Origin: Nitratiruptor sp.
GTDB lineage: Bacteria; Campylobacterota; Campylobacteria; Campylobacterales; Nitratiruptoraceae
Reading direction: 5' to 3'
NCBI GenBank assembly: GCA_015494535.1
Contig: WGBC01000090.1
Location: 1 to 37,592, forward strand
DNA length: 37,592 nt
Below are positions 12,500 through 31,509 of the stretch, in pieces. A model generated the notes under the pieces. It did no database searches, was not told where the DNA came from, and was given only the letters and a program-made list of their open reading frames with translations. How positions within the stretch are numbered: position 1 is the first letter of the stretch; each line of letters opens with the position of its first letter. The translations under genes and the position numbers were made by a program.

Positions 12500-12519
12500 A
12501 AAGCCCAACTAGGGGCTAA
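12500..12519 (-). terminator. Possible terminator of the rdgB-ciaB-propeller operon
   Basis: Immediately at and after the TAG stop the minus strand reads TAGCCCCTAGTTGGGCTTT, a 5-bp GC stem AGCCC/GGGCT followed by only three T. It is a weak hairpin, so this is tentative. Confidence 0.35.
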
Positions 12520-13907
12520 TTGGAGAGATTGATGATTTTGAAACCGTCGCCACCGCTAGCTATAAAGCCCAGTTTTCCATCGCTGCTTACTTGCATATCC
12601 ATTGCAGGATAGGGCATGTAAATGGTTTTGAGATATTTCGGAACATACTTTTGGCTAATATCGTATACATCGATAGAAGCGACGGTATTGAGGGTATAGA
12701 GGCGCTTGCGGGAATCATCGATAACTATCTTCTCTATTTCATGTCGATTTTCTATAGCTTTCATCGGGCGCATTATTTTTGGATTGGCACTCATAACTAG
12801 GAGTTTTGTGCTTCCATAGGCTGAAGCGTAAATTGTGCCATTATCAGAGGAGACGGCAACACTATTGAGATTAATGGTACCAATAGTTGTTTGCAAACGA
12901 GGCTTTAGCGGATTTTCTAAAGAGTATATACCTATTCCTTTTGCGCTATCTACTACATAAAGTCTATCACCATTGACTACAATGTCAGAAATTTCACCGG
13001 TAATCTCTTGGGATACCGTATAAGGATAATTATTCAAATTGATTATATATAATGTGTGCAGCCCCTCGACAGCATATAGCGCTCTTTTGTCTGAAGAGAG
13101 CGCCAATTGCACTATATCGTGTACATTTTGCAATGAGATGGAAGCCATTTGGTGCATGCTATTTGCATCAAAAACTGCAATGCTCTTACCATTTTTTGCG
13201 GCAAAAAGCCTATTGCCACCTATTGCCACATCTAAAACAGGAGCAATATTTGCCTGAGCAAATAGCTGAGGATCATATAGAGATATACCATCTATCTGCA
13301 AAGCTATTACACCGCCAACCCCATCTGCAACATAAGCCATATATCCTTCGCTTACATCTACGTTCCAACTAAACCCCGGCGTATCATAAGAGGAGATTAT
13401 ATGAGGAAAACTTTGCATATTTTTATAAATATATGAGATTTTAAGATTGTCAATCTGATACGTTAAATCCGATAATCCTACTTCACCCACTGGTGTTTGC
13501 AAATATTTGAATAAATTGTTTTTATCCGCTCCCATGAGCTTATGGATTTTACCAGTTGTAGTGCTTGCATAGACCCAAGAAAACCTCTTGTCTGCATCTT
13601 CTGGGAAATTGATGAAACTAAAATACCCATCTGGTGAAAAGTTTTGTAAACTTACATTGATTTCTGTAAAGCCAAAAGCGTTGTGTTCAGTAGGAGTAGT
13701 GCCAAGTAGGCGATATTTTTTGCCACTTTTTTGGCTAACGTATACCCACTCATTGTACTCTATATAACCATTACCATTGAAATCATAACTATACATCATA
13801 CCATCAACGTTGAACTCTTTGGATGTAAGGTAAGCTTTCAATTCATGTAGATAATCTCTCGCAAACAAAGCGCATACAAAAAGAATCAACAGGCTAAAAT
13901 GCCTCAT
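12516..13907 (-). CDS. Exported protein: EF-hand N-terminal domain fused to a beta-propeller
   Basis: The 463-residue protein has a signal peptide (about 1-16, 'LLILFVCALFA'). A N-terminal domain follows (about 17-165) containing a canonical 12-residue EF-hand loop, Asp42 to Glu53 in 'YDFNGNGYIEYNEW', then 'YRLLGTTPTEHNAFGF', 'PDGYFSFINFP' and 'FSWVY'. Residues about 180-463 are repeated blades with LVIVD/YVTN-like units ('GYMAYVADGVGGVIALQI', 'DRLYVVDSAKGIGIYSL', 'KLGFIASGGDGFKIINL'), a probable seven-bladed propeller for binding. It lies 3 nt after the ciaB-like gene. The N-terminal domain recurs in the protein at 30418-31509. Codon use looks AT-rich. Periplasmic or surface calcium-dependent binding is inference. 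Confidence 0.85.
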   Translation of the reverse strand: MRHFSLLILFVCALFARDYLHELKAYLTSKEFNVDGMMYSYDFNGNGYIEYNEWVYVSQKSGKKYRLLGTTPTEHNAFGFTEINVSLQNFSPDGYFSFINFPEDADKRFSWVYASTTTGKIHKLMGADKNNLFKYLQTPVGEVGLSDLTYQIDNLKISYIYKNMQSFPHIISSYDTPGFSWNVDVSEGYMAYVADGVGGVIALQIDGISLYDPQLFAQANIAPVLDVAIGGNRLFAAKNGKSIAVFDANSMHQMASISLQNVHDIVQLALSSDKRALYAVEGLHTLYIINLNNYPYTVSQEITGEISDIVVNGDRLYVVDSAKGIGIYSLENPLKPRLQTTIGTINLNSVAVSSDNGTIYASAYGSTKLLVMSANPKIMRPMKAIENRHEIEKIVIDDSRKRLYTLNTVASIDVYDISQKYVPKYLKTIYMPYPAMDMQVSSDGKLGFIASGGDGFKIINLSN

Positions 13908-30417: not shown

Positions 30418-31509
30418 TTGAAACTGAAAAGATTTCTTTTGGGGATGAGCTTCCTTAGTACTTTCATGTTTGCAGATACTGCCAACTATATGCAAAATCT
30501 CTATGACTATCTCCTCTCAAAAGATTGGAAAGTATATGGAGAGTTTTATAAATACGACTTTAATAAAAATGGAAAATATGAGTTTAACGAGTGGATCTAT
30601 CTCTCTACTACAGATGGCAAAGCCTATAGACTTTTAGGGATGACTCCTACGCAAAACAACCCCTTTGGTTGGCTCCCTCTAGCTTCTAAACCAATCAATC
30701 TCCAAACGCCTGATGGCTACTTTATCTATATAAATTTTCCTGGTGATAAAAATAGAGCTTTCTCTTGGCTCTATGTAGATAGAGCCAGCAAAAAAACATA
30801 TAAGCTCCAAGGAGCGGATCCTAAAACACACTTTTTCAAATATCTAGATATAGATAGTGATGGCAGACCGGATAGTTTGGATCAATTACATGTTAGTATA
30901 AATGGGATAAAAATCTCTTTTACTCAAGATTCTCAAATCAACCAAAATTCAAGCCAACCTCCAACACTTATCCAGATGCCAACAAGTTGGCAGTGCACCT
31001 CTTCGCAACCTTATAAAAATTTTATTGTGCAAGAAAAAGTTTATGCATCTGGGGAATTTGAAACTAAAAACCATGGAGGCATTTGCGCCGCCGAAGCAAA
31101 AACAGCCATCATTCCTACATCTGTATATGCCAAAGAGCAGTATAATATCACATTACTACAGGATGGCGATAGGATTCAAGGCTACGCAGAATATTGGTTT
31201 CCTGAGGGGAAAGTGCACTATCACTTTACAAGCCAAAAAAGAGGTTTCGTTGATTGCACAGCCTTTTTCAATGTCTATCCCGTTCCTGACGTTATGGCTG
31301 GAGATGCCTATTTTAACGACTTTACCTCTTTTGATGATAAAGAAAATCTCATTAACAAAGGAAACTGCCCAGATTGGATTTTTGATGAAGAGGAGTATGA
31401 CGAAGATACCATTGACACAACTGGAGAAATATTCACGTACAGCATCATCAAAAGCCAAAATGGCATTACTTCAACCGTCGCCATCTATTATAATATACGC
31501 AAACAATAG
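30418..31509 (+). CDS. Exported protein: shared EF-hand N-terminal domain plus novel Cys-containing C-terminal domain
   Basis: The 363-residue protein starts at TTG after AAAGGAGGGAGC and has a signal peptide (about 1-19). Its N-terminal domain (about 20-170) aligns with that of the propeller protein at 12516-13907. It has a canonical EF-hand loop from Asp47 to Glu58 ('YDFNKNGKYEFNEW'), 'YRLLGMTPTQNNPFG', 'PDGYFIYINFP', 'FSWLYV' and 'GADP...FFKYL'. A second calcium-loop-like stretch follows, 'DIDSDGRPDSLD'. The C-terminal part (about 185-363) has four cysteines (two possible disulfides), an acidic stretch 'DEEEYDED' and no family I recognise. It is the last gene after dapD. Codon use appears AT-rich. 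Function is unknown; calcium-dependent surface or periplasmic role is inference. Confidence 0.85.
   Translation: MKLKRFLLGMSFLSTFMFADTANYMQNLYDYLLSKDWKVYGEFYKYDFNKNGKYEFNEWIYLSTTDGKAYRLLGMTPTQNNPFGWLPLASKPINLQTPDGYFIYINFPGDKNRAFSWLYVDRASKKTYKLQGADPKTHFFKYLDIDSDGRPDSLDQLHVSINGIKISFTQDSQINQNSSQPPTLIQMPTSWQCTSSQPYKNFIVQEKVYASGEFETKNHGGICAAEAKTAIIPTSVYAKEQYNITLLQDGDRIQGYAEYWFPEGKVHYHFTSQKRGFVDCTAFFNVYPVPDVMAGDAYFNDFTSFDDKENLINKGNCPDWIFDEEEYDEDTIDTTGEIFTYSIIKSQNGITSTVAIYYNIRKQ

Follow-up and report, generated by a model that had tools for sequence, protein, structure and literature searches.

Two exported proteins and the region they share

We analysed a stretch of 37,592 nucleotides from Nitratiruptor sp. 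(contig WGBC01000090.1), referred to here as the window. An initial annotation had singled out two of its genes, and both open reading frames are found where they were placed, at 30418-31509 (+) and 12516-13907 (-). The first gene (P0001) follows dapD and starts with a TTG codon after a good Shine-Dalgarno sequence, AAAGGAGGGAGC-TTG. The second (P0002) is located between ciaB and hsp20. Their parts are as follows.

30418..31509 (+): P0001, exported protein of 363 residues, with signal peptide, module and orphan four-cysteine head
30418..30474 (+): P0001 signal peptide, residues ~1-19, read from the sequence, with TTG start and strong ribosome-binding site
30475..30927 (+): P0001 terminal module, residues 20-170, AF2 pLDDT >90 nearly throughout
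30556..30591 (+): P0001 loop 1, DFNKNGKYEFNE, D47-E58, strand-loop-strand
30847..30882 (+): P0001 loop 2, DIDSDGRPDSLD, D144-D155, a pattern that recurs in the family
30928..31506 (+): P0001 orphan four-cysteine head, AF2 confidence low
12516..13907 (-): P0002, exported protein of 463 residues, with signal peptide, module and beta-propeller, directly behind ciaB
13413..13859 (-): P0002 terminal module, residues 17-165
13749..13784 (-): P0002 loop 1, DFNGNGYIEYNE, D42-E53, strand-loop-strand
12519..13400 (-): P0002 head, LVIVD/WD-like beta-propeller

A module of about 150 residues is common to both proteins. BLASTP aligns 207 residues of the two at 39% identity (E=2e-36); identity rises to 43% when the modules alone are compared. 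The motifs that the initial annotation had quoted, DxNxNGxxExNEW (D47-E58 and D42-E53), YRLLGxTPT, PDGYFxxINFP, FSWxY and GAD..FKYL, are present in both. A second Dx[DN]xDG loop in P0001, at residues 144-155, was absent from that annotation. After the module the C-terminal parts are unrelated, as had been described. The P0001 head has cysteines at C193, C223, C280 and C317 and was not found in 60 related genomes except the window's own. The P0002 head is a propeller of the seven-bladed type, in which AF2 (mean pLDDT 91.6) and Foldseek (1gxr, E 5e-14, WD40 propellers) find blade repeats of the LVIVD/WD type closing a propeller; the Pfam LVIVD model alone gives 18.2 bits against a cut-off of 20.2. 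Both genes had also been thought AT-rich compared with their neighbours. They are modestly so relative to the window (GC 0.375 and 0.382 vs 0.429), but the genes for hsp20 (0.368) and a TonB receptor (0.370) are as low.

The order ciaB-P0002 is kept in other module-bearing genomes. In genomes G001, G011, G012 and G006 hsp20 directly follows ciaB and there is no P0002-type gene, which makes this a clean presence/absence polymorphism. In genome G010 a homologue of P0002 is retained, but its module is eroded. At G004:C1:1561675-1563414 (L244) the ciaB homologue is broken by seven in-frame stops and the adjacent propeller gene with the module is intact.

A duplicated beta module with calcium-type loops

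The module is an internal duplication, as its two halves match each other in a profile-profile comparison (hhalign, E 6.7e-12). It consists of two tandem beta repeats of about 60 residues, and each half follows the pattern xxGxFxxYDF-loop-WIYxS..GxxYRLLGxxP..FGW. A minimal unit of about 55 residues, mostly in two copies, is present in further proteins. In the AF2 model of the module a single short helix precedes the beta strands, and pLDDT is >90 over nearly the whole length.

The initial annotation regarded the module as an EF-hand domain, and this part of it did not hold. Like the EF-hand families PF00036 and PF13405, the module has a 12-residue loop with Asp or Asn at positions 1, 3 and 5, Gly at position 6 and an acidic residue at position 12. 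Both window proteins have the canonical loop pattern, as do 41 of the 68 ungapped family rows. Unlike an EF-hand, the loop is predicted to lie between beta strands, and its position 12 is usually Asp (44/68 rows). The AF2 models place the DxNxNG loop between strands E32-36 and E50-54 in P0001 and between E36-40 and E54-58 in P0002 (pLDDT ~90), and neither model has the flanking helices of a helix-loop-helix. Because the loop sits between two strands, we read it as a strand-loop-strand Dx[DN]xDG site; judged from these models it is probably not an EF-hand. EF-like calcium loops are known to occur in such a strand-loop-strand setting as well (PMC3123361). The loop is probably a calcium site, and the earlier description of the module as calcium-tuned is plausible from the chemistry of the loop residues.

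Searches against named families gave the same picture of loop-level similarity. Pfam matches across the family are limited to the loop and concern EF-hand, dockerin and, marginally, FG-GAP. The EF-hand models do not match P0001, reach 17.8 bits in P0002 (loop only, cut-off 25.4) and have a best E-value of 3.9e-6 across 39 family members. The dockerin model gives 14.6 bits in P0001 against a cut-off of 22.9. FG-GAP_3 weakly matches four of the 39 members (best E 0.049), and the FG-GAP/VCBS cut-off is not reached. A profile search of PDB sequences with the module returned only loop-level matches to calcium proteins (E 0.02), and a Foldseek search of the PDB with the P0001 model, which includes the low-confidence head, gave no match at E<=0.001. 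The domain was described as unnamed, and indeed the module has no match above cut-off among curated families in Pfam, NCBIfam or the PDB. No link of Nitratiruptor to EF-hand, serpin or dockerin was found in a literature search that covered few subscription journals, and none of the titles and abstracts on Nitratiruptor type II secretion or its named strains concerns this domain. The family is apparently undescribed so far. A phage origin was considered and rejected, with no relative in viral contigs or phage records and marginal PHROGs matches.

Loops of the form Dx[DN]x[DNS]G are frequent in the family, with 103 in 91 modules compared with 2.4 expected from shuffled sequence, an enrichment of about 40-fold. 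Only a single loop is clear in P0002, and loop 1 is degenerate in serpin-type modules. Given that most sites of the Dx[DN]xDG type are extracellular and many are structural (PMC3123361), this enrichment could also point to a calcium-sensing or folding-stabilising cap that has no shared partner. We consider such a cap improbable, as it leaves unexplained both why the module is fixed at one or other end of the protein and why it has spread across many unrelated heads within one genus.

Distribution of the module and diversity of its heads

The family had been taken to have two members, but it is far larger. Iterated HMMs run over the fetched loci identified 162 distinct ORFs, fragments included, that carry the full module or the minimal repeat pair. 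These ORFs span 13 genomes, namely 12 of the 16 Nitratiruptor genomes plus G028, a genome from another part of the order with a single distant copy. Each Nitratiruptor carrier has between 6 and 29 of them, with the maximum in G002; the window's own genome, which is 79% complete, has 8-9 copies. Counting full modules only in a set of 60 relatives gives 3-14 for each of 12 genomes of the genus, among them that of the window, and none in the sister genera of the family. An even sample of 298 genomes from the phylum contained the module in members of the same genus only. It was also matched in 36 loci from vent MAGs and in plasmid records of cultured strains. HMM searches of G001, G011 and G012 found neither the full module nor the minimal repeat pair. 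One apparent relative, in a 'Saprospiraceae' MAG (L137, JALVEG010000072.1), was set aside as probably a misbinned Nitratiruptor contig, because it matches contig C60 of the window's genome (G000) over 1.67 kb at 78% identity. On contig C21 of that genome a module copy is broken by a TAG stop (L062:6061-6369) and is a probable pseudogene.

In 140 of 141 uncut proteins the module is found at one extreme end, N-terminal in 88 and C-terminal in 45, and seven proteins consist of the domain only. The heads fall into at least 20 sequence clusters. The serpin head (PF00079, E 1.5e-103) occurs in 11 genomes by sequence cluster. Other heads named by Pfam are RCC1, LVIVD, PQQ-type propeller, cytochrome d1, MORN_2, DUF285, beta-helix, DUF2202, MtrC/MtrF and c7 cytochromes, SNase, CAP, subtilase and CarboxypepD_reg. 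One giant member of more than 2,400 residues has GH12, F5/8C and IMPa-helical domains. In some members Ser-rich linkers separate module and head. Many members have starts that resemble signal peptides. A signal-peptide filter is passed by 81 of 141 tagged proteins (those with the module) and by 149 of 813 neighbours, and it is over-strict, many of the rejected starts resembling signal peptides by eye. The terminal placement and the diverse heads across the family thus bear out the earlier picture of an exported, unnamed module with interchangeable heads.

Heads cluster overall on the module tree, with 14 changes compared with a mean of 44.7 after shuffling. On well-supported branches RCC1 heads nevertheless change at least five times and LVIVD heads at least three times. 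Two sister modules in G002, one with an RCC1 head and one with a cluster-0 head, join at 99%, and the modules closest to that of P0001 carry quite different heads. From the overall clustering together with these changes it follows that the tag was inherited along with its heads and also recombined repeatedly.

A single unnamed domain probably marks much of the surface or secreted protein set of this deep-sea vent genus. It allows serpins, subtilases, MtrC-like cytochromes and propellers to be read as one localised set, and it provides a handle on otherwise hypothetical proteins and a direct way to look for a putative receptor. Near-identical repeated genes in G002 (L065:6388-10578, L065:16769-19428 and L178:2479-3831) each have one N-terminal minimal unit and look like a recent amplification; the copy that was scanned, L065:7995-9347, contains DUF285 repeats.

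Plasmids, type II secretion and a possible docking role

Plasmids G002:C2 and G004:C2 (the latter probably the record NZ_AP023066 of strain YY09-18) and contig G003:C104 each encode a type II secretion (T2SS) set together with two tagged proteins, one of them a subtilase. They also encode PMT-, GtrA- and GT2-like glycosyltransferases and, where annotation exists, a neighbour that is a PPIase or resembles one. NZ_AP023064 (strain YY08-26) has a related layout. The stretches NZ_AP023066.1 1-24473 and NZ_AP023064.1 1-35300 consist largely of the T2SS, tagged proteins, a PPIase and a cassette like those for protein O-glycosylation (PMT, GtrA, GT2), and these sets might be read from their gene content as a portable secretion package.

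This raises the question whether the module serves as a signal for export or sorting that a dedicated outer-membrane machine, such as the plasmid T2SS, recognises, and not as a means of permanent attachment. Complete T2SS gene sets adjoin tagged subtilases and other tagged proteins on NZ_AP023066, G002:C2 and G003:C104, and among the complete genomes module and T2SS occur together in G002 and G004 and are both missing from G001 and G011. However, three MAGs that are 98-99% complete (G005, G008 and G014) have modules and no GspG or GspD above cut-off, and G012 has a T2SS without the module. No single domain is known to be common to T2SS substrates, which we also count against a signal of this kind, and we regard it as unlikely. 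Over the 16 genus genomes the T2SS is found in seven of the 12 with the module and in one of the four without it. As an obligate partner the T2SS was rejected, its presence not being strictly correlated with the module, and this mismatch is not decisive because MAGs often lose plasmids.

The glycosyltransferases in the plasmid clusters would also suit a module that binds glycan or matrix in the manner of a carbohydrate-binding module (CBM) and would hold proteins either to polysaccharide made by the cell itself or to external surfaces, as would its small terminal beta fold, the Ser-rich linkers of some members and the GH12 and F5/8C domains of the giant member. The absence of any CBM match in PDB or Pfam and the majority of heads, which are not carbohydrate-active, speak against this possibility, and we think it slightly less likely still than an export signal.

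Our best explanation, to which we give about an even chance, is that the module is a genus-specific portable extracellular docking tag for exported proteins. A protein with the module would be exported by Sec, and its terminal module would fold compactly as two beta repeats in tandem, held stable by one or two putatively calcium-bound Dx[DN]x[DN]G loops. The module could then attach its head, whether serpin, protease, cytochrome or propeller, to a common receptor or matrix outside the cell. The T2SS, being encoded beside tagged proteins on plasmids, may be the route by which at least part of the family crosses the outer membrane. The parts of this reading that we infer are calcium binding, location at the surface and the receptor itself, both that it exists and what it is. 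The explanation is supported by the duplication, the terminal position of the same domain on many unrelated exported heads, the diversity and changes of these heads, the restriction to the genus apart from G028 and the signal-peptide-like starts of many members. The frequent Dx[DN]x[DNS]G loops, the presence of T2SS and tagged subtilase on the same plasmids and the parallel with Ruminococcus dockerin proteins also favour it. The explanation is weakened by the lack of a cohesin (PF00963 above cut-off in none of the 16 genus genomes), by the lack of a recurring partner gene in the sampled flanks, where only ordinary housekeeping synteny was seen, and by the loose match with the T2SS, the single clear loop of P0002 and the degenerate loop 1 of serpin-type modules.

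Since one tag would fix many unrelated cargoes, this way of working would be dockerin-like. The module shares with dockerin type I (PF00404) the tandem-duplicated Dx[DN]xDG calcium-type loops, and with cellulosomal dockerins the use of a single tag for a wide range of unrelated heads outside the cell. Cellulosomal proteins of Ruminococcus have the same order of signal, dockerin and serpin, and LRRs, proteases and many unknowns are among the dockerin partners (PMC2930009). Dockerins are built of loop-helix segments, whereas the module is predicted to form beta repeats of about 60 residues; it also occurs N-terminally as well as C-terminally, is not accompanied by a cohesin and stays below the Pfam cut-off. 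The resemblance is best read as a functional one between what appear to be unrelated folds. Integrin FG-GAP and calcium blades likewise have a Dx[DN]xDG loop between two beta strands, but the module comprises two repeats and no closed propeller. These comparisons suggest that mix-and-match calcium tagging, as in cellulosomes, had an independent origin in a lineage unconnected with plant-fibre degradation.

A wider and more tentative proposal is that Nitratiruptor evolved its own extracellular assembly system, composed of a beta-fold calcium tag and a receptor and partly delivered by the plasmid T2SS and glycosylation package. If this is true, up to about 30 tagged exported proteins could belong to the system in each genome, and cellulosome logic would have a counterpart, built on an unrelated tag, in a Gram-negative chemolithoautotroph. 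Candidates for its structural part are proteins with a unit pair at their end (L175, L180, L186, L190, L194, L196, L206 and L208). They occur in many module-bearing genomes, appear charged and coiled-coil-like by eye where read, and gave no specific Pfam match where tested. A further tagged family is seen at L179, L181, L184, L185, L187 and L202, and several of its members have a conserved segment like C-R-x-DPKSCGI immediately before the C-terminal unit.
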